46,942 nucleotides of DNA from contig JAJXUF010000016.1 in assembly GCA_021783175.1 (NCBI GenBank), forward strand, positions 1 to 46,942, written 5' to 3'. Source of the DNA: Pseudomonadota bacterium (GTDB lineage Bacteria > Pseudomonadota > Gammaproteobacteria > Acidiferrobacterales > UBA6901). Shown here piece by piece: positions 22,562 through 46,551 of this stretch. The position numbers were made by a program, and so were the translations under genes. The stretch's first letter is position 1, and the number at the start of each line of letters is the position of its first letter. The notes beneath the pieces are model-generated. The model searched no databases, had not been told where the DNA came from, and was given only the letters and a program-made list of their open reading frames with translations.

Positions 22562-22860
22562 CTAACCGGCAACGGCGGAAATGATCTTCGATATGGTTAC
22601 CCCGATGACGACGCCGGCCCCGCTACCGATGGCGCTAAGCAACACAGCTTCGACCAGGAACTGCAGCAGCACATGTATCCGGCGAGCGCCGATCGCCATG
22701 GGGATGCCAATTTCACGCGTGGTCCGGTCAACGAAACGAGCAGTATGTTCATGATTCCGATTCCGCCAACTAGCAGGGAAATCGATGCTACCGACGCCAG
22801 CAAAATCGCCATGATGCGACTGCTGCTCTCGGCAACAGGCGGCGCATGGCAAAGAACCAA
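22562..22860 (-). pseudogene. MacB-type ABC efflux permease remnant (C-terminal FtsX domain), frameshifted
   Basis: Two minus-strand frames together encode the end of a MacB-like permease. One reads ASVASISLLVGGIGIMNILL. After an indel near 22725-22735 the second continues TREIGIPMAIGARRIHVLLQ and EAVLLSAIGSGAGVVIGVTI. These are the hallmark FtsX/MacB transmembrane and cytoplasmic-loop sequences. The ATPase domain and the periplasmic domain are missing. The fragment follows the response-regulator stop with no spacing, so a deletion probably joined the two. It cannot make a working pump. Confidence 0.8.
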
Positions 22861-23545
22861 TCAAGCAAGAGTATATTGATAGCCGATACCACGAACGGTC
22901 TGAATTCTCTCCTGGTTGTTCGGCAATGGACCAAGTTTTTTTTCGCAAATTGCTGACGTGCATGTCGAGACTGCGGTCATAGGACGTAAGGATGAGACCA
23001 AGCGCCCGTTCGGACAGGGCGGGCTTTGACACCACGTGTCCGGCATCGGGCAACAGAACCTCCAGACCACAGTATTCGGTGCTGGTCAACGGAACCGCAT
23101 CGCCGGCACGATATGCCGTGCGCGTGCCTGTATTAATTTCGATATCACCGAGAGTCAGGGATTCTTCGCCGATCTGCGGCGTGACAGGTGTTCGGCGCAA
23201 TATCGCGCGAATGCGGGCTACAAGCACGCGCGGATTGCGCGGTTTGGCGAGATGATCGTTGGCCCCGAGTTCAAGGCCTACGATGCTATCCACGTCGGCG
23301 CCGCGCGCAGTCAGAATTAGCACCGGCACAAGCGAGCGCATTCGCAAAGCACGCAGTACGTTGAAACCGTTTATGCGTGGCATCATGATGTCGAGGACGA
23401 TGAGATCATAATCGCCGCGTCGCGCCATCGCGCGTGCGGTCTCCCCATCATGCGCTGTGTCGACAAGGAAATCCTCGGAGGAGAGATACTGTGTTAGCAT
23501 TTCGCCAAGCTCGACATCATCGTCAGCTAGCAGAATGCGGTCCAC
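22861..23545 (-). pseudogene. CpxR-like response regulator, frameshifted in an A8 run
   Basis: This is an OmpR-family regulator. The receiver domain has acidic pocket D8-D10, phosphorylation site D52 (LIVLDIMMPRING) and K101; the winged-helix DNA-binding domain starts near residue 130. The frame is intact to SNLRKK. Then eight A on the coding strand (T8 at 22936-22943 on +) shift it by one base: with seven, it would read RKKLGPLPNNQERIQTVRGI and end YQYTLA at TGA 22863-22861. The shift removes the recognition-wing end of the domain. It could be a true inactivation, a slippage-based switch or a sequencing error. Decayed neighbours favour inactivation. No histidine kinase gene follows. Confidence 0.8.
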
Positions 23546-24065: not shown

Positions 24066-24428
24066 ATGCAAAAAGTTGCAGACATTTCTCCAGGCGACCA
24101 CGTGCCGCGTGTCGCCTTGATCCGTTGCCTGCGACGCAAGGCCTGGTTTCAGTGGGTAGCGATTCTTGCGCTGGCATGTACGGTTGGTCTCTATGCCGCT
24201 GAGTCCAATCACCATCATAAAACACAAGCAAGTGAACTTCTCTGCCCGGTATGCAAGGCGATCGGTCAGGGTGCCTTGGACCTCTTTACGCCCGAGACTG
24301 GACTGACCTTTTCCGGCACCAGTGGCTATTTTCTCAGGCTGGCAAAACCGAAGGCCTCTTCTCTATCGTCGTTCTTCCTCGCGCTACCGCAGTCACGCGC
24401 ACCGCCCCGCTCATCATCTCAGGTGTAA
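24066..24428 (+). CDS. DUF2946-like small membrane protein with HHH and CxxC motifs
   Basis: The 120-residue product has a basic N-terminus, one membrane segment (WFQWVAILALACTVGLYAA, residues 27-45), then SNHHHKTQASELLCPVCKA with His49-51 and Cys60/Cys63, and a Pro/Ser-rich tail. This layout resembles DUF2946 proteins, which are small and often found beside copper genes. Here the copper genes copC and copD lie downstream. The His and CxxC residues would face the periplasm and could bind metal, which is an inference. GGAGG lies rather far (about 15 bases) upstream of the ATG. The family call is moderate. Confidence 0.6.
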   Translation: MQKVADISPGDHVPRVALIRCLRRKAWFQWVAILALACTVGLYAAESNHHHKTQASELLCPVCKAIGQGALDLFTPETGLTFSGTSGYFLRLAKPKASSLSSFFLALPQSRAPPRSSSQV

Positions 24429-24752: not shown

Positions 24753-24959
24753 ATGAACGGTGGCGAAGAGTGTGTCTTGGCGACCATCTTTAGAAAAGGC
24801 CCAATTGGCGGATCAGAGGAAAGGGCGGTTGGCCAGGCGATAAATTCGGATGCCCGAGTCGCTTCGGTAATGTTTGCTAGCTGCAAAGTGCCTGTGAAAA
24901 TCGCTGACGTATTAGGAACAAATCTTGGTGCCATGCGATCCGACATGGAGGTCGCATGA
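24753..24959 (+). CDS. Possible small ORF coupled to the beta-barrel gene
   Basis: This 68-codon frame has GAGGAG about ten bases upstream of its ATG. Its TGA overlaps the ATG of the next gene (ATGA), the arrangement expected for translational coupling. The product has no signal peptide, membrane segment or recognised motif. It may be a leader controlling the copper operon or a chance frame. Confidence 0.3.
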   Translation: MNGGEECVLATIFRKGPIGGSEERAVGQAINSDARVASVMFASCKVPVKIADVLGTNLGAMRSDMEVA

Positions 24960-25846
24960 AAAAGTTACGGGCCTGGATGGTGCGTTTGACGGGCGTTTTG
25001 GTGATGGCCGCGGGTTCGGTTTCCACCGCCTCTGCGCACGCCATTTCCGGCATGCGGGTGTTTCCAGCCACGATGAGTTTCGACGATCCGGGCGTGGCGG
25101 ACGAAGCACCGTGGGTTTACAGCCACATCAATGCCAACGGCACGAGGCAGGATTCCGTTAGTCTTGCGTTTGCCAAGCGGCTGACGTCAAGTTTTGGCTT
25201 GGCGGTTAGCACTGATTATCAGCGCCACGTCCCGGGAGATGGATCGCCGACTGTCGAAGGATGGGACAACTTCACAGTTGCTGCTGCCTATCAACTATTC
25301 GTTCATCCAGATGCTGAATCGATTGGCATGTTGCAGCTTGCAGATAGCGTCGGTAAAAGTGGCAGCACCGTCATCGGATCCTCGTACTCCACCTACACAC
25401 CGGAATTCACCTACGGCAAGGGATTTGGCGGTCTGTCGGACAAGTGGCAGATGTTGCGGCCGATGGCATTTACTGCCGCAGTATCCGAGGACTTTCCGAC
25501 CGCTTCAGGCGTACCGCATGCGCTCAATTGGGCGTTTTCACTGCAATACAATATTCGATACCTGCAGAACTTTGTTCGCTACGTGGGGCTCAAAGCACCA
25601 TTCGACAAAATGGTGCCGATCGTCGAATTTCCACTGCAGACTTGCCTTGATCGCGGTTGTTCGCATGAGACCACTGGCTACGCGAATCCCGGAGTGATCT
25701 GGGTCGGGCGGTATTTTCAGTGGGGCATTGAGGCGCAGGTACCAATAAACGACCGGACGGGCAAGTCCGTTGGGATCTTGCTGGGGATGGATTTCTATTT
25801 TGACGACATCGCGCCGCATAGTCTGGGCAGGCCGATGTTTCGCTGA
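24956..25846 (+). CDS. Predicted outer-membrane beta-barrel protein of the copper cluster
   Basis: The 296-residue product has a clear signal peptide ending STASAHA. The mature part alternates hydrophobic and polar residues with many aromatics (for example SVSLAFAKRLTSSFGLAVST and WAFSLQYNIRYLQNFVRYVG), as in an outer-membrane barrel. It has two cysteines near residue 228-233 (TCLDRGC). The start is supported by GGAGG five bases upstream. It is followed after 21 bases by copC and then copD, so it probably belongs to copper or redox-metal handling. I do not recognise a named family. Its role as a channel or a structural partner is unknown. Confidence 0.7.
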   Translation: MKKLRAWMVRLTGVLVMAAGSVSTASAHAISGMRVFPATMSFDDPGVADEAPWVYSHINANGTRQDSVSLAFAKRLTSSFGLAVSTDYQRHVPGDGSPTVEGWDNFTVAAAYQLFVHPDAESIGMLQLADSVGKSGSTVIGSSYSTYTPEFTYGKGFGGLSDKWQMLRPMAFTAAVSEDFPTASGVPHALNWAFSLQYNIRYLQNFVRYVGLKAPFDKMVPIVEFPLQTCLDRGCSHETTGYANPGVIWVGRYFQWGIEAQVPINDRTGKSVGILLGMDFYFDDIAPHSLGRPMFR

Positions 25847-25867: not shown

Positions 25868-26239
25868 ATGCCAAAGTTGAAATTTCTAAATTGCCTTGCG
25901 CCCTTGTTGCTCACGCTATCTATTATGCGGCCGGCATCAGCCCATGCTTTTCCGGATCGTTCCATTCCTCATGTGGGTTCGGCGGTCGCGACTGCTCCAC
26001 GATCGGTACGCATCTGGTTCGACGGAGACCTGGAACCCGTATTTTCCACCCTGATGGTCAAGACCGAATCAGGGACACAGGTCAGCATGGGACAAGGCCG
26101 GGTGTCGACTTCCGACCGTACGCTTCTGGAAACAGATCTGCCGGCGACTTTGCCGCCCGGCAAGTATTACGTCTACTGGAGCGTCATTGCGCGGGACGGC
26201 CATCACACCGAAGGTCGATTTTCCTTTTCGGTAAAATGA
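25868..26239 (+). CDS. copC: Periplasmic copper-binding protein CopC
   Basis: CopC is a small beta-barrel copper chaperone of the periplasm. The 123-residue product has a signal peptide ending PASAHA. Depending on the cleavage site, the mature N-terminus provides His in AHAFPDRSIPHVGSAV. The fold then runs through VRIWFDGDLEPVFSTLMV and ends YVYWSVIARDGHHTEGRFSF. The DGHH motif and the N-terminal His match the Cu(II) site of CopC; the Met-rich Cu(I) site of Pseudomonas CopC is not evident. It precedes copD by 17 bases, and the pair is a known copper-uptake or delivery module. Confidence 0.9.
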   Translation: MPKLKFLNCLAPLLLTLSIMRPASAHAFPDRSIPHVGSAVATAPRSVRIWFDGDLEPVFSTLMVKTESGTQVSMGQGRVSTSDRTLLETDLPATLPPGKYYVYWSVIARDGHHTEGRFSFSVK

Positions 26240-26256: not shown

Positions 26257-27825
26257 ATGCACCTGCTTTACATTGCCTTTAGCGGCGCTGACGTTTTGGC
26301 GCTGGTGGCCCTGATCGGCATGCTCGCATGTTGGCGCGTCGTATTGCCGCAAGAGCCGCTTGAGTCGCTTGAGTCGCTTGATACAACAATGCGTCGATTG
26401 CTCTTCGCGACAACATTGTTCTTGACGATCAGCAGCGGAGGAATTCTGCTGGCGCGCACCATGGAGATGGTGCAGGGGCGCTGGACTGCAGTACCGTCGG
26501 CGCTGCCCCTTGTTGTCAGAATGACACATTACGGTCATGTCTGGTTGTTTCGCATACCTGCGCTGATTGCGCTTTGGGTTGGTCAGATACCAAAGGCCAA
26601 GCACCACCGTCGCTGGTGGCAGGGGTGGATCATGATGATCGCGGCTGCTGGAATTGCGATGACCCGCAGCGAAACCGGACACCCTGCCGATCACGGCGAC
26701 TTTACGCTGGCGGTCTGGATCGACTGGGCGCATCTGCTGGCGGGGTCGCTGTGGGTGGGCAGCCTGTTCGGCATGTCGCTCGGGGTTTTTCCCAGCCTGC
26801 TCACCAGGGTGTCGGACCCGGGGCCGCGCACCGCTGAGATCTTCGCCAGACTGTCGCGTCTTGCCGCTCTCGCCCTCGGAGTCGTCCTGGTAAGCGGCGC
26901 GTATACAGCCTGGCACGAACTCGATTCCTTGAGTGCCCTGTGGGATTTCGCGTATGGGCGGACCCTGTCGGTCAAATTGTTGGCGGTGGCCGGCATGGTC
27001 GGTCTTGGTGCCTGGAATCGGTACGTGCACCTGCCGCGTCTCGAGGTGCTTTCGGGTAAAGCGCCTCGCCGGTGGTGGGCGCACCTTGCCGCCTTCGGGA
27101 CAGACCGCAGCCGGCTTGTCCGGCTGTCTGCTGGAACTGTCATCCGGGAGTGTTCATGCACCGTCAGCAAGGAAGCGCTGTTGGGCGTAATTGTTATCGC
27201 TGCGGCATCGACCCTGCTGCACGGGATGCCGCCGGCAGAAATGATAAAGACCGCCGCTGCGGCTGGCATGCCAGGCATGGTTATGGCCCCCGCGGGCAGC
27301 CCCGTTCCCGCGCTCGGCCCTCACCACTGGGTCGACTGGCCGACAGCGCAGGCTTATATTCGGCGCTCGGTGCACGCCGGGCGCGCCGATCGAGCGGGTC
27401 GCGTGCACTTTCGCGGGCAGGCCGTGACGATTGACCTGATCGCGGTCCAGCCGCACTACCCGGACATGAGTTTCGAACTTGCCAATCGAGTGAATCCACC
27501 GATCGTCGTGTCGGCAGGGGTGCGGGTGACGCTCAATTTGCTTAATATGGACTACGGCCCGGGGATGGACCACGGAGTGGTGCTAATTGCGGCCCGTCCT
27601 CCTTACCCTGCGTTGGGGGTGGAGCGTCTGAAACCGCGTCTCGCAATGCTAGATCCCATCCCCGCGCGCAGCGAGGCGTCGCTTGCGGACTCCCGGTACG
27701 CCCAGGCGAGCGTGCGTTTCACCACCCCGAGTGTCCCAGGGACTTATTACTATGCCTGTCAGTGGCCTGGTCACGCCGAGGGCTACCACATGTACGGAAA
27801 ATTCGAGGTACGGAAGGGGAAATGA
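26257..27825 (+). CDS. CopD membrane protein fused to a C-terminal rusticyanin-like cupredoxin
   Basis: This is one uninterrupted 522-residue frame. Residues about 1-335 form a CopD-type multi-helix membrane protein (LYIAFSGADVLALVALIGML, then WIDWAHLLAGSLWVGSLFGM, and LVSGAYTAWHELDSL). After a last helix ending LLHGMPPA comes a Met/Pro/Gly linker. A cupredoxin domain of about 150 residues follows. Its sequence VHFRGQAVTIDLIAVQPHYP, then NPPIVVSAGVRVTLNLLNMD, and GTYYYACQWPGHAEGYHMYG follows rusticyanin closely. Candidate type-1 copper ligands are H439, C501, H506 and M512. The Cys-to-His spacing matches rusticyanin; the His-to-Met spacing is one residue longer. I infer copper oxidation, delivery or electron transfer at the periplasmic face. 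Most CopD proteins lack such a domain. Confidence 0.85.
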   Translation: MHLLYIAFSGADVLALVALIGMLACWRVVLPQEPLESLESLDTTMRRLLFATTLFLTISSGGILLARTMEMVQGRWTAVPSALPLVVRMTHYGHVWLFRIPALIALWVGQIPKAKHHRRWWQGWIMMIAAAGIAMTRSETGHPADHGDFTLAVWIDWAHLLAGSLWVGSLFGMSLGVFPSLLTRVSDPGPRTAEIFARLSRLAALALGVVLVSGAYTAWHELDSLSALWDFAYGRTLSVKLLAVAGMVGLGAWNRYVHLPRLEVLSGKAPRRWWAHLAAFGTDRSRLVRLSAGTVIRECSCTVSKEALLGVIVIAAASTLLHGMPPAEMIKTAAAAGMPGMVMAPAGSPVPALGPHHWVDWPTAQAYIRRSVHAGRADRAGRVHFRGQAVTIDLIAVQPHYPDMSFELANRVNPPIVVSAGVRVTLNLLNMDYGPGMDHGVVLIAARPPYPALGVERLKPRLAMLDPIPARSEASLADSRYAQASVRFTTPSVPGTYYYACQWPGHAEGYHMYGKFEVRKGK

Positions 27826-27976: not shown

Positions 27977-28876
27977 TCAGTTGGTCTTTCGGAGAGAAAA
28001 GCCGGAGTTGGTTTTCACTTCGTGCAGGGAGCGCACAAACGCGTAGACGGCCACAACGAACAGCACGACGACAACAAGCAGGAAGCCGATTCCAAGGTGT
28101 GCCAGATTATGCAGCTGGATTCCCGTGTCGATCTGAATCTTGTCGATGTCTGGATAGAGCAGTCCAAGAATAGCGATGACAATAAAGGCAAATCCACCCC
28201 AGGACAGAGTGCGCCCGGCAACTGCACGAGCGACGTAGATTCGGGCGTCATCGCCCAGGTGGCGGCGCGCCATCCAGGCGCCGACCAGCGCGCCGAAAAG
28301 AATCTGCATTACCATGGTGCCGAGGCCGAACAGCAGGCCGGGAACGAAGCCAAGATAGGCGTTCGGCATCGACGGCGCCAGTACCGTGTACGTGATGAGA
28401 GCAAATGCGCCGCTTCCCCAGCCAGCAATGAAGCCGTGAACCAGAGGCATGTAAGCAGGCATGGCATGCGGCTGCTGCAAATGACCGAGCTGCGGTTTCA
28501 GCTTGTGACTGTGAAAAAGATGCAGAATTGTCCCGCGTCGAAGTACATAGTAGCCGGAAACAAGCATGACAATGCCAACGACCAAATCGACGCCGAATTC
28601 CAGACGCACGTTATGGATCAATTTGGCGAATTCGGTCATGCCGAAATAGGCGATTTCGCTTGCGATCGCCCTTTGGAGCGTAAAGGCTGTCGAAAAAAGC
28701 AGACCGGCACGCATGCCTCCTTTCGTGCTGTAGCTGCCGATGGAATAACTGAAGGTGATCGGCCAGGTGTGCTCGTCAGGAGTGATTCCGTGAATCACTC
28801 CGAGCATAAAGGCGGTAATCAGCACCAGGTCAATGCCAAGCCCCAGCTGGGGATTCCAAAGGTCGAGGGCGCTCAT
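27977..28876 (-). CDS. NicO-like transition-metal permease
   Basis: The 299-residue inner-membrane protein has six to eight hydrophobic helices. Helix 2 ends in VIHGITPDEHTWPI, where H29, D34 and H36 resemble the HX4DH signature of nickel/cobalt permeases, with one extra residue before the last His. A His-rich loop (HLFHSHKLKPQLGHLQQPH) follows near residue 140, as in RcnA/NicO exporters. ATG 28876 is preferred because the upstream in-frame extension reads as non-coding. The gene converges on copD. The direction of transport and the metal (Ni, Co, Cu or other) cannot be decided from sequence. Confidence 0.65.
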   Translation of the reverse strand: MSALDLWNPQLGLGIDLVLITAFMLGVIHGITPDEHTWPITFSYSIGSYSTKGGMRAGLLFSTAFTLQRAIASEIAYFGMTEFAKLIHNVRLEFGVDLVVGIVMLVSGYYVLRRGTILHLFHSHKLKPQLGHLQQPHAMPAYMPLVHGFIAGWGSGAFALITYTVLAPSMPNAYLGFVPGLLFGLGTMVMQILFGALVGAWMARRHLGDDARIYVARAVAGRTLSWGGFAFIVIAILGLLYPDIDKIQIDTGIQLHNLAHLGIGFLLVVVVLFVVAVYAFVRSLHEVKTNSGFSLRKTN

Positions 28877-30041
28877 GATCACGTTACTAGGCCAGAAAGT
28901 CGGGGGAAATGTGGTGCCGGCCAATATTTGCGCAGCGACGCATACCGTTTCATTCCGAGGAAATAACGTAGTGTAACATCGAAAGCGCTGCCCGTGCGGA
29001 CTATCGGGATCTTCCGCGGAGATCTCCCAAGAGTACGTGAAGCGACGTGCAACATAAAGACTGGTCCGATGGGTGAGGGTGTTACGTTCTCTATCCGATG
29101 GACCGCCGACCTGCATGGGGGTCGGCGAGACAAACATAACCTGACCAATTAAAACGCACAGGGGAGTCCAGGTCACGGGGTAATTCTGTAGGCGTGACGT
29201 TTTGTCGTGTAACCCTCACGCTCCGATCGAACCGACAACTGGTTGATAACCACTTTCCGCTGGCATCCGCGCTGGGCCAGCTTGCTGTTGCCGTGCATAG
29301 CCGAGCGCAGGATTGCGAGGCGGACAGCCGAAGAAAAAGTCAGGCCGGCTTTTGTACGTTTATTCTGGTCGCGATGCGACTTCTCTCGAATTGGTTGCGG
29401 ACGGAATTACCATTCGACGGTCAGTTGTCGGTAAACGTTTGTCCATGGAAATGTTGCGCGCGCGGATTTTGTTGAACAGGCCGGTAGCATAATGAGCGAG
29501 CACGCCATCGGACCCGGGGCGGCTCGTGCCAGAAGTTACCGAATCTGTTCCGCTGTACGATCCCCAGGCAACATCGGGAAAATGGACGCGCTTCGTGTCA
29601 TGGCGTGGGTATTGCACTCGATGATTCCGGCAGCGGCTATTCGTCGCCCGGACACCCCGAGATGTTGCCTCAGGACGTAAACAACGATTGGCCAGGGCTT
29701 CATCAATCGACTCGCGCTTGGATCTGAAAGCTCCCTTGTCGTTGTTTCGATTGGCCGTCACCTGAAACTCAAATTAGTGGCGCGAGGAATAGAGACCGAA
29801 TACCAATGGTCCGCGCTGGCTCAAATGGTTTGCGAAAGATTCCAGGGGTTCCTGTTTTGCCGCCCGTAGGCAGAGCAGGAATTTCTGAGATGGCCCGAAG
29901 GCAATCAAGCCGAGGTCGTTAGCGACGTCGGCCGCATAGTGTAAAAAATCAGGAAGGACGTAATAGCGCCATAGTCTAGCCGCTCGCCATAGTCGAAATG
30001 TCGTTTTGCCTCTGCAGTACCGACTGATCAGAATGCGCTGC
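28877..30041. other. Long gap without a supported gene
   Basis: These 1165 bases have open frames on both strands, but none with a start, ribosome binding site and recognisable product. The minus-strand stretch 29774-30000 reads protein-like (for example HYAADVANDLGLIAFG) but has no start codon in its own frame, so it may be a gene remnant. The left part should contain the nicO-like promoter. Confidence 0.5.
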
Positions 30042-41625: not shown

Positions 41626-42693
41626 CTAATTGGCCTCGTACCACCGCTTTGTGCCAGTAACCACTTTCACGACCAACAGCATCACCGGAACTTCGATCAG
41701 CACGCCCACAACCGTGGAAAGCGCGGCCCCGGACTGGAATCCGAAAATACCGATCGCCGCGGCCACCGCCAGCTCGAAAAAATTGGATGCGCCAATTAAT
41801 GCCGAAGGACATGCAATTGAATGTTTTTCACCGGCAAGTCGATTGAGTGCATAGGCCAAGGCGGCATTGAAGAACACCTGGATCAAAATCGGCACGGCAA
41901 GAATCGCAATCACGAGCGGCTTCTGAAGAATCGCCTGACCCTGGAATGCAAATAGCAGGATTAAGGTGACGAGCAGAGCCGAAGTTGACCAGGGACCGGT
42001 CTTTTTCATTGCTGTATCGAAGACTTCCCGTCCCTTGGCCTTCAGAAACTTGCGCCAGAGCTGTGCCAGAACGACAGGGATAAGGATGTAGATAACAACC
42101 GAGGCGAGCAGCGTTGCCCAAGGAACGGTAATAGAAGATATTCCCAGCAGCAGGCCTACTAGCGGGGCGAAGGCGAAAATCATGATAGTGTCGTTAAGTG
42201 CCACCTGCGAGAGCGTGAAGAGCGGGTCACCGTTTGATAGCCGGCTCCAAACGAAGACCATGGCGGTACAGGGAGCGGCCGCCAGCAGGATCAAGCCTGC
42301 GATATAGCTGTCAATCTGATCGGCGGGCAGCATCGCGGCGAAGATGTGACGTACAAATAGCCAGCCAAGAAAGGCCATGGAAAAGGGTTTTACCAGCCAG
42401 TTGACGAACAGGGTGACGCCGATACCCCGCACATGCCGTCTGACCTCGTGGACTGCAGTGAAATCCACTTTGACCAGCATAGGGATGATCATTACCCAGA
42501 TGAGAATTCCGACCGGCAGGTTGACCTCGGCAATATCGAGTTGACCGATCGTCTGGAACAGCGCCGGCGCCATTTGGCCAAGAACAATGCCGGCAACAAT
42601 GCAGAGAAAGACCCATAGTGTGAGGTAACGCTCGAAAAGGTTCAGGGCTGTGCTGTCCGTTTCGTGGACAGCTGCGTCACATTGGGTGGACAT
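41626..42693 (-). CDS. acr3: Arsenite efflux permease Acr3
   Basis: Acr3 exports arsenite with the proton motive force. The 355-residue product has ten predicted helices, the Acr3 segment VNLPVGILIWVMIIPMLVKV, the conserved Cys142 in LILLAAAPCTAMVFVWSRLS, and IGASNFFELAVAAAIGIFG with the helix ending VLIEVPVMLLV. The length fits the family. It is the last gene of arsR-arsC-acr3, 18 bases after arsC. GGAGA lies upstream of the ATG. The Acr3 class differs from E. coli ArsB in sequence and is the common type in environmental bacteria. Confidence 0.95.
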   Translation of the reverse strand: MSTQCDAAVHETDSTALNLFERYLTLWVFLCIVAGIVLGQMAPALFQTIGQLDIAEVNLPVGILIWVMIIPMLVKVDFTAVHEVRRHVRGIGVTLFVNWLVKPFSMAFLGWLFVRHIFAAMLPADQIDSYIAGLILLAAAPCTAMVFVWSRLSNGDPLFTLSQVALNDTIMIFAFAPLVGLLLGISSITVPWATLLASVVIYILIPVVLAQLWRKFLKAKGREVFDTAMKKTGPWSTSALLVTLILLFAFQGQAILQKPLVIAILAVPILIQVFFNAALAYALNRLAGEKHSIACPSALIGASNFFELAVAAAIGIFGFQSGAALSTVVGVLIEVPVMLLVVKVVTGTKRWYEAN

Positions 42694-44539: not shown

Positions 44540-45691
44540 ATGCCGTGTCTCCAGAAGGCGATTTTTTCCATCAGCAGGTTCACGACTTCATTTCTAGCCG
44601 ACCCGAGCCTTTTATCGTTTCACGGTTTCACGAGCGAGTTCTTGACACTGAACGTACTCCTTGCGGGATTCCGAGCACTGATACCCAAGAATGTCATTGA
44701 AGTCGCGGTAGGGCGTCCACTATTCATTGTGAATTTCAGCCAGGCCGAAAGATCAACTTTCTACGGCGGAAGCCCTACTCTTGCCAAGTTTCGTGAATTC
44801 CTCCTAGGTGGGCAGGAAAACAGCGACCAGATCATGACCTGTTATCACAGCAACACCGGAGACATTAAGGTCAACGAGGAGTTCGGTCAGTGGGGTATGC
44901 GCAGCACCGAAGCTAGGCCCGTATATCGCTTAAAGGAAGGTAAGCGTGATTGGAAAAGCGATGTGGCGGTCACACGGCATCACCTCGGATGTTCTGGAGA
45001 CAATGCCAACGAGTTTTCCTACAAACAACCCCCACAGGATAAGGTCTCGCTGGTGCTTGACATCTTGCGGTTCCGTTACGGATACAGCCCTGAATCGGAA
45101 GGGACTTCTGGGACTCTATCTCTAGAACCCCGCGACGATGAGCAATACAGCGCAGAGTCCATATGCAATTTCTTTGAGGAGCGGTGTGCGTCAGATCAGG
45201 AAAAAGCCGCGGCTAACTGGGCAATTTTCCAATCGAGTAAAACGATAAATATCCTCCAGCTTAAGAATCGAACCCACAATGATGTTTCCAATATTGCTGT
45301 CCATATAGGTGCTAAGGCATATAAGTCCGGCAAAGTGATCGAGTCCGTCGCACGCGCGGAAGGTTTTGAGATCATCTCCGAAGGAACGTACTACACCCAC
45401 CTGATTGTGCGAAGCCTACCGGCCGGATCGTCCAGATTCTTAATCATCGAGGCAAGGGGCGGCCCTCTGGAAAAAGGGAATTTCAAAGTAGAAGCCGGTA
45501 TTACGACCAAGTTCGGCCCGAGCACCTTTCGGTGGATTGCGGCGATCGCCTTCGTCATTTGTCTGGGTCTGGCAGCCGCTACATACGTCAAAGCCCATTC
45601 AAGCGGTGGCAATCCAGCCGCCCAGTCCATAAGCCAGCGTGATGGTCGGACAACTCCTGGACTTCCCCCGTTTCCGTGGACACCGGGCTAA
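44540..45691 (+). CDS. Unrecognised protein with C-terminal membrane anchor, end altered by an IS
   Basis: The 383-residue product has no N-terminal signal. It has a mixed alpha/beta N-terminal half, a strand-rich region at about 240-325 (INILQLKNRTHNDVSNIAVH, then FLIIEARGGPLEKGNFKVEA) resembling an immunoglobulin-like sandwich, and one membrane helix at about 332-351 near the C-terminus. This suggests a tail-anchored protein facing the cytoplasm. The last residues after Thr372 come from the IS3 element inserted at 45658. Without the insertion the frame would read PAKP and stop at 46936-46938, so the body is essentially intact. GGAGG lies 12 bases upstream of ATG 44540. I do not recognise a family. 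Confidence 0.65.
   Translation: MPCLQKAIFSISRFTTSFLADPSLLSFHGFTSEFLTLNVLLAGFRALIPKNVIEVAVGRPLFIVNFSQAERSTFYGGSPTLAKFREFLLGGQENSDQIMTCYHSNTGDIKVNEEFGQWGMRSTEARPVYRLKEGKRDWKSDVAVTRHHLGCSGDNANEFSYKQPPQDKVSLVLDILRFRYGYSPESEGTSGTLSLEPRDDEQYSAESICNFFEERCASDQEKAAANWAIFQSSKTINILQLKNRTHNDVSNIAVHIGAKAYKSGKVIESVARAEGFEIISEGTYYTHLIVRSLPAGSSRFLIIEARGGPLEKGNFKVEAGITTKFGPSTFRWIAAIAFVICLGLAAATYVKAHSSGGNPAAQSISQRDGRTTPGLPPFPWTPG
45655..45657. repeat. Target-site duplication, left copy (TCC)
   Basis: Direct copy of 46923-46925. Three base pairs is a usual duplication length for IS3-family insertion. Confidence 0.75.
45658..45684 (+). repeat. IS3 terminal inverted repeat, left
   Basis: It begins TGGACTTCCCCC and ends GTGGACACC; it matches the right end in 22 of 27 positions after inversion. 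Confidence 0.85.
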
Positions 45692-46551
45692 GCAACTTTC
45701 ATGATCGCCTCGAACTCAGCCGGTGAACGGTAGCCGAGTGTCGAATGACGACGTTGCCGATTGTAGAACACTTCGATCCATTCGAAGATGTCCTGTTTGG
45801 CTTCTTCGCGCGTACGGTACTGCCGGTGATGCACGAGTTCTTTCTTGAGCGTGCCGAAGAAGCTTTCCACACAGGCGTTGTCCCAGCAGCTTCCCTTGCG
45901 GCTCATGGAGCACGTGATAGCGTGCTCGGTGAGCAGATCCTGGTAATCGTGGCTTGCGTATTGCACCCCACGGTCGGAATGACACAGCAGCTCCTTGTCG
46001 GGTTTACGCCGCCACAGCGCCATGGTGAGCGCGTCAGTGGCAAGATCCGCGGTGAGCCGGTTTCCCATGGCCCAGCCGATGGCCGCACGCGAGTACAGAT
46101 CGAGCACAACAGCGAGATACAGCCAGCCCTCCTCGGTCCAGCAGTACGTGATATCGCCCGCCCACACGCGGTTGGCTGCCGTGACTGCAAACTGCCGATC
46201 GAGGGTATTCGCTGCCACCGGCAGCCTATGGGAGGAATCCGTGGTCGCCTTCCATTTCTTCACGGTTTTCGCCCGGATGCTGTGCTCGCGCATGAGGCGT
46301 GCCACGCGATTCTCGCTCACGGGATGTCCTGCCTCGCGCAGATCGCGCGTAAGGCGCGGGCTGCCGTAGGTGTGGCGGGATCGCGCATGGAGTGTGCGGA
46401 TCTGCTCGGTGAGATCGCGGTTGCGCTGCGATCGTGTGCTCTGCGGGCGTCTTGCCCAGGCGTAGTAGCCGGCGGCAGAGACCTGAAGCATCCGGCACAT
46501 GAGACGCACGGGGAAGCGGCGGACATGTTCTGCGATGGCGCGGAATTTCAT
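45688..46551 (-). CDS. IS3-family transposase OrfB (DDE)
   Basis: The 287-residue product is the catalytic half of the transposase. The DDE triad is visible as D133 (WAGDITYCWTEEGWLYLAVV), D193 (CHSDRGVQYASHDYQDLL) and E229 (DNACVESFFGTLKKEL), with 35 residues between the second D and E, as in IS3. HTH_21-like and rve domains cover residues about 45-280. Its ATG overlaps the OrfA stop (ATGA), and it can also be made as an OrfAB fusion by -1 frameshift. Its own stop lies four bases inside the left inverted repeat boundary. Confidence 0.95.
   Translation of the reverse strand: MKFRAIAEHVRRFPVRLMCRMLQVSAAGYYAWARRPQSTRSQRNRDLTEQIRTLHARSRHTYGSPRLTRDLREAGHPVSENRVARLMREHSIRAKTVKKWKATTDSSHRLPVAANTLDRQFAVTAANRVWAGDITYCWTEEGWLYLAVVLDLYSRAAIGWAMGNRLTADLATDALTMALWRRKPDKELLCHSDRGVQYASHDYQDLLTEHAITCSMSRKGSCWDNACVESFFGTLKKELVHHRQYRTREEAKQDIFEWIEVFYNRQRRHSTLGYRSPAEFEAIMKVA

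Follow-up and report, generated by a model that had tools for sequence, protein, structure and literature searches.

Copper-handling operons of bacteria may contain copD, a gene for a membrane protein, and in one such operon copD does not end with its membrane part. In the window (the whole stretch of 46,942 nucleotides that was analysed), it runs on into a domain resembling the blue-copper protein rusticyanin. The question that this locus raises is what a cupredoxin tethered to CopD could be for. The first-pass annotation had proposed that a redox-active site on a copper transporter might couple the oxidation state of copper to its uptake, or feed electrons to the periplasmic chain. We here consider both proposals next to a third reading, in which the domain would accept or buffer copper.

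One frame encodes a CopD membrane part and a cupredoxin

The gene and its parts are as follows.

26257..27825, + strand: CopD-cupredoxin fusion gene, 522 aa (open reading frame; full-length homologues P0002-P0005)
26257..27231, + strand: CopD membrane part, aa 1-325 (PF05425, NF033808)
27232..27327, + strand: Met-rich linker, aa 326-357 (Met counts; low model confidence)
27328..27816, + strand: rusticyanin-like cupredoxin domain, aa 358-520
27571..27573, + strand: codon of H439, proposed copper ligand (alignment)
27757..27759, + strand: codon of C501, proposed copper ligand (alignment)
27772..27774, + strand: codon of H506, proposed copper ligand (alignment)
27790..27792, + strand: codon of M512, proposed axial ligand (C-x4-H-x5-M)

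The frame at 26257-27825 is open from its ATG to its stop over 522 codons, and the CopD and rusticyanin profiles match their respective halves, which confirms the uninterrupted reading of the first-pass annotation. A frameshift or stop between the domains had been named as what would overturn that reading; since the full-length architecture recurs in the proteins P0002-P0005 and in the genomes G419 and G420, a frameshift or assembly accident can be ruled out.

The N-terminal half belongs to the Pfam CopD family (PF05425, aa 194-270, 54.4 bits; gathering cut-off 32.1). The CopD equivalog model NF033808 matched aa 6-319 (E 1.6e-25) with 90.3 bits, below its curated cut-off of 195, and we therefore refer to a CopD-family protein and not to a CopD equivalog. 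Helices of the CopD part are seen in the full-length structure model; eight membrane helices are predicted for this part, with the C-terminus on the periplasmic side. In the CopD loops of the window protein (P0001), Lys and Arg are most numerous in loops 3-4 and 7-8, and loop 5-6 has no positive excess. The linker stretch aligned to aa 324-356 holds 4-9 Met per protein in the five fusions, and the pLDDT of the full-length model is below 50 at residues 333-361.

Because the cupredoxin part of the full-length model was poor, this domain was modelled alone, which gave a predicted blue-copper fold of the rusticyanin type. H439, C501, H506 and M512, the candidate ligands of the first-pass annotation, lie at the positions claimed, are invariant in 5/5 aligned fusion proteins, and align with the His, Cys, His and Met ligands of rusticyanin, apart from a one-residue insertion ahead of the Met. 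With this putative ligand set on a predicted cupredoxin fold, the domain qualifies as a type-1 cupredoxin as judged from alignment and model.

The fusion is rare, stable and bound to a clade

A full-length search covered about 5.8 billion proteins, with scoring on the 7994 candidates that shared most words with the query. At least 140 proteins (including the query) matched among these scored candidates, and the best 120 of the 140 were inspected. Among the matches listed, P0002-P0005 were colinear with the query over its whole length at 59-67% identity; by alignment, the fusions are 59-69% identical to P0001. When aa 356-522 were searched among proteins of similar total length, the same four proteins plus the query made up 5 of the 808 scored candidates, and a search for the domain as a stand-alone protein returned two relatives among 180 candidates. 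The fusion was found in 2/57 genomes of one order (G419 and G420) and in 0/369 genomes of the class, where 12 matching frames were only 65-271 aa long. P0004 and P0005 apparently represent loci identical or almost identical to those of G419 and G420 (P0005 is little separated from L042, the G420 locus, in the CopD tree described below), which leaves about five independent full-length cases instead of seven.

Plasmid records that matched the query numbered 25, none over 80% of the query length; the best 15 of these 25 all matched within aa 58-270, the CopD part. The sole match of a contig search (L001) was dismissed as chance, being 46% over 28 residues and read in a frame other than that of the unrelated regulator-like gene that it overlaps. 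Keyword passages of candidate papers in the open-licence literature contained no description of a CopD-cupredoxin fusion.

Conservation between P0001 and each of the four other fusions is higher in the cupredoxin half (65-79%) than in the CopD half (59-65%). Between P0004 and P0005 this relation is reversed, with 66.0% for the cupredoxin and 68.9% for the CopD half.

The cupredoxin belongs beside rusticyanin

Rusticyanin is marked by a very high redox potential and by electron transfer from Fe(II). The rusticyanin model TIGR03095 matched the fusion at aa 383-518 (E 1e-16) with 61.4 bits, well short of its curated cut-off (146.7). For the four remaining fusions the scores were 74-77 bits, and the best E value of the window protein with solved rusticyanins was 1.3e-12. 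In a cupredoxin tree of 34 rows, 13 rusticyanin-type rows (one of them solved) were split with support 100/99 from 21 others, comprising six fusions and 15 stand-alone relatives. The rusticyanin-like label given at first pass is thus borne out by the profile match, but the domain is not a rusticyanin, since it scores below the cut-off and lies in a distinct sister clade. Left out of this tree were L031 (a copy of L018), L033, L035, L039 and L003, as well as L009, L013 and L028, in which the motif was not found; long branches in the trees were those of RUS_L005 and of L103, L106 and L102.

The six fusions share the spacing C-x4-H-x5-M with the 13 stand-alone rows of their group, including the database protein P0121. 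C-x4-H-x4-M is found in the rusticyanin-type rows, in a Jiella protein and in the G359 protein. These data mark out a cupredoxin clade beside rusticyanin, whose members the models used match weakly, as rusticyanin or sulfocyanin.

Within the order, a stand-alone gene of this kind is present in 14 genomes (15 loci, G375 having two). Its neighbours, profile-tested on examples and otherwise identified by tblastn, include a PAS-GGDEF-EAL gene in 12/14 genomes, a RibD_C gene in 9/14, a gene for about 215 aa without family match in 11/14, and in 10/14 a gene resembling that of type III sulfide:quinone reductase (288.9 bits, short of the family cut-off of 525). The loci L044-L056, L058 and L059 are those near the PAS-GGDEF-EAL, RibD_C and sulfide:quinone-reductase-like genes. 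Because these genes of the order do not stand in a copper cluster, they count against a copper-tolerance role for the family as a whole.

Two assignments in these surroundings were given up. The neighbour of about 800 aa had been taken for a copper ATPase, and in the order this was rejected because nine of ten scanned examples are PAS-GGDEF-EAL proteins; the only P-type ATPase among the ten was at L057. DUF1641 was dropped as a name for the 215-aa neighbour, as neither Pfam nor NCBIfam agrees.

In G359 the ATPase reading was kept, and at 84% identity it extends to G152. The stand-alone relatives of both genomes have a copper ATPase gene in their cluster, together with genes for a multicopper oxidase and a DUF302 protein, the families being assigned by Pfam or NCBIfam in G359 and by 83-87% identity in G152. 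Passages of a published study likewise place stand-alone cupredoxin genes of Alteromonas and others beside copper ATPase genes, with no CopD fusion mentioned there (PMC8478169).

The fusion lies in a conserved copC operon

The genes upstream of the fusion are given below.

22562..23545, - strand: divergent response regulator remnant, run together with the end of an FtsX permease (Pfam, NCBIfam)
24066..24428, + strand: DUF2946-like small gene (weak PF11162 match, E 0.063, under cut-off)
24956..25846, + strand: predicted "barrel" gene (a label of the first-pass annotation), 21 nt before copC
25868..26239, + strand: copC (PF04234), 17 nt before copD

The copC and "barrel" genes that had been noted upstream are both there, and G419 and G420 keep them in the same order. 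The copC product is a CopC family member by PF04234 (67.4 bits; gathering cut-off 23.3), and it reached 69.5 bits with the CopC equivalog model NF033814, under the cut-off of 95. The "barrel" protein had no Pfam or NCBIfam match and no convincing PDB relative. The gaps in the window are 527 nt between the DUF2946-like and "barrel" genes, 21 nt between "barrel" and copC, and 17 nt between copC and the fusion; the order DUF2946-like, "barrel", copC, copD-cupredoxin is kept at L042 (G420) and L043 (G419). Homologues of the DUF2946-like gene also occur at L080, L081, L082, L099 and L100.

A "barrel" match was obtained in 11/369 genomes of the class, with copC adjoining in 9/11 and copD in 8/11; two of the cases lacking such a neighbour are in G012 (on a contig of 3999 bases) and G137. 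The "barrel" family, with homologues at L042, L043, L080-L084 and L099-L109, is tied to copC and copD and may be a further part of the system.

On the reverse strand at 22562-23545, a CpxR-type response regulator is fused in frame to the end of an FtsX-type permease; in L043 the equivalent place is taken by genes for a regulator and a kinase, both with their domains complete.

Elsewhere in the window, a convergent membrane-protein-like frame with weak matches only (DsbD_2, E 0.018) lies directly downstream of the fusion at 27977-29176 (-). Further away are an ACR3 arsenite transporter gene at 41626-42693 (-) (384 bits, cut-off 282.8) and a transposase gene with an integrase core at 45688-46551 (-) (PF00665, 95.1 bits).

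Related operons contain CopI, separately or fused to CopD

Three operons with an unfused copD, in G422 (L080), in G421 (L081) and as a second copy in G420 (L082), contain the same genes plus a CopI-like gene for 173-191 aa directly before the "barrel" gene. Their products matched the CopI models with E 2e-27 to 5e-30 and 96-105 bits, under the equivalog cut-offs. P0001 itself gave no match to the CopI profiles NF051440 and NF047895 up to E 1 and falls outside that family, and a tblastn search (E < 1e-3) of the 527-nt gap upstream of the window's "barrel" gene detected no remnant of CopI.

CopI also occurs fused to CopD. Four such fusions were found in all (P0053, P0055, L099 and L100); among the "barrel"-bearing genomes of the class, copD runs in frame into CopI in 2/11, G041 and G235, with P0053 and P0055 coming in addition. 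The window protein is therefore not unique as a CopD protein with a cupredoxin at its end.

A CopD tree of 45 rows combined 24 database relatives with the fusions, the CopI-linked rows and the operon rows. One clade (98/98) comprised the six rusticyanin-like fusions, among which P0001 has a long branch (0.72), and a separate one (98/93) comprised the four CopD-CopI fusions. The sister of the rusticyanin-like fusion clade (91/94) is the group with separate CopI genes, the CopI-like gene being known from 3/9 of its rows and the other six being database proteins without operon context. The two kinds of fusion form separate CopD clades, so the C-terminus of CopD has acquired members of two cupredoxin families, for which two events are the simplest account. 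The "barrel"-copC-copD cluster takes up cupredoxins repeatedly.

The rusticyanin-like family is present in 16/57 genomes of the order (E < 1e-45) and CopI in 9/57, and only G420 has both. G419 has no CopD match at E < 1e-20 besides the fusion, and no CopI match at E < 1e-10. This near-exclusion may reflect replacement of one by the other in the same system; it could also be explained by kinship.

The cupredoxin probably serves as a CopI-like copper acceptor

We favour the reading that the domain is a CopI-like periplasmic copper acceptor or buffer tethered to CopD, and consider it probable that it serves copper tolerance. The type-1 cupredoxin would be held at the periplasmic side of the CopD membrane protein and would most likely fill the role that CopI has in the sister operons, binding periplasmic copper and either passing it to CopD and CopC or keeping it from them. 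The operon as a whole would then confer copper tolerance.

The link to copper tolerance is supported by the comparative context, namely the CopI-type cupredoxins and the shared operon. According to passages of a review (PMC7558416), copper stress induces CopI, which is periplasmic, and a copI mutant of Rubrivivax is more copper-sensitive than a copA mutant. In the same vein, passages of another paper propose that surplus copper in A. ferrooxidans is bound by rusticyanin itself (PMC5328820). Our reading is favoured by the CopI-like gene in the same operon of the fusion's sister clade, by the separate clade of CopD-CopI fusions and the lack of a CopI match in G419, by the copper clusters of G359 and G152, and by the higher conservation of the P0001 cupredoxin half. 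It is weakened by loop 5-6 with its missing positive excess, the long branch of P0001 and the broken regulator next to the operon, as well as by the reversed conservation in P0004 versus P0005, by kinship as a possible cause of the CopI near-exclusion, by the non-copper surroundings of most stand-alone genes in the order and by a sister clade in which the operon is known for 3/9 rows. Two cupredoxin families at the end of CopD, and a separate cupredoxin gene in the sister operons, indicate a periplasmic partner of CopD and suggest that CopD and the cupredoxin work together in copper tolerance. For CopD itself, a passage of the review calls the exact role unknown (PMC7558416).

Alternatively, the tethered type-1 site might pass electrons to and from copper at either CopC or CopD, thereby setting the oxidation state of the copper for uptake or retention. 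The complete and invariant ligand set, the blue-copper fold and the presence of CopC and CopD in the same operon agree with such a gate. However, among the surrounding genes that were examined, none was recognised as encoding a redox partner, reductase or c-type cytochrome; passages of the review describe CopD transport itself as unproven, and these also present CopI, the alternative in the sister operons, as a copper-stress protein of unknown mechanism (PMC7558416). We regard this gate as rather unlikely. In its broadest form, equally doubtful to us, the domain would cycle between Cu(I) and Cu(II) and control membrane passage of copper versus its periplasmic retention; if true, the repeated capture of cupredoxins by "barrel"-copC-copD operons would represent a general copper-redox module not described so far.

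The fusion might also be incidental, the domain either soaking up copper passively through Met and His or decaying as a mere passenger, with redox chemistry and exact place irrelevant in both cases. Its rarity (5/808 scored candidates including the query; 0/369 class genomes), the Met-rich linker and the regulator remnant in the window would fit this, yet the ligands are invariant in 5/5 fusions, the domain is kept across proteins 59-69% identical to P0001, and CopD-CopI fusions have arisen in parallel, which makes this explanation improbable.

Least probable, and a very slim prospect in our estimate, is a membrane-anchored rusticyanin in iron or sulfur oxidation: its fold, the rusticyanins over the TIGR03095 cut-off (197-200 bits) in G208, G370 and G382, the three genomes with a stand-alone relative among eight tested, and the sulfide:quinone-reductase-like gene (under its family cut-off) near the stand-alone gene in 10/14 genomes speak for it, but the clade is separate from rusticyanin (100/99) with a score far under the cut-off, TIGR03095 at E up to 0.001 found only the fusion in G419 and only the fusion plus a weak match (E 1e-4, the CopI-like gene) in G420, and no cluster gene has a CxxCH motif in frame (one at 27129 lies in an out-of-frame ORF), so that the earlier suggestion of feeding the periplasmic electron chain finds little support.

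Comparison with known systems

The closest counterpart of the proposed CopI-like acceptor is CopI itself (NF051440, NF047895), the cupredoxin of the copC-copD operon in relatives, where it is a separate gene or fused to CopD. CopI-like proteins share with the fusion a Met-rich stretch before the cupredoxin domain. By sequence, however, CopI is another cupredoxin family, and the CopI-like proteins studied here score under the CopI equivalog cut-offs.

Rusticyanin (TIGR03095; PDB 1rcy, 1e30) differs in forming a separate clade, whereas the fusion cupredoxin is joined to a membrane protein and its spacing from the second His to the Met is one residue longer. The sulfocyanin-like copper-binding protein of Jiella (P0122) is a stand-alone member of the fusion's own cupredoxin clade (42% identical), but with its 229 aa it has no CopD part, and its loop is H-x4-M. 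Finally, CopC-CopD fusions such as YcnJ, as presented in passages of two papers (PMC7558416; PMC7785015), resemble the window protein in joining a periplasmic copper-binding domain to CopD. There, the partner of CopD is CopC and not a type-1 cupredoxin, whereas in the window CopC is encoded by a separate gene.
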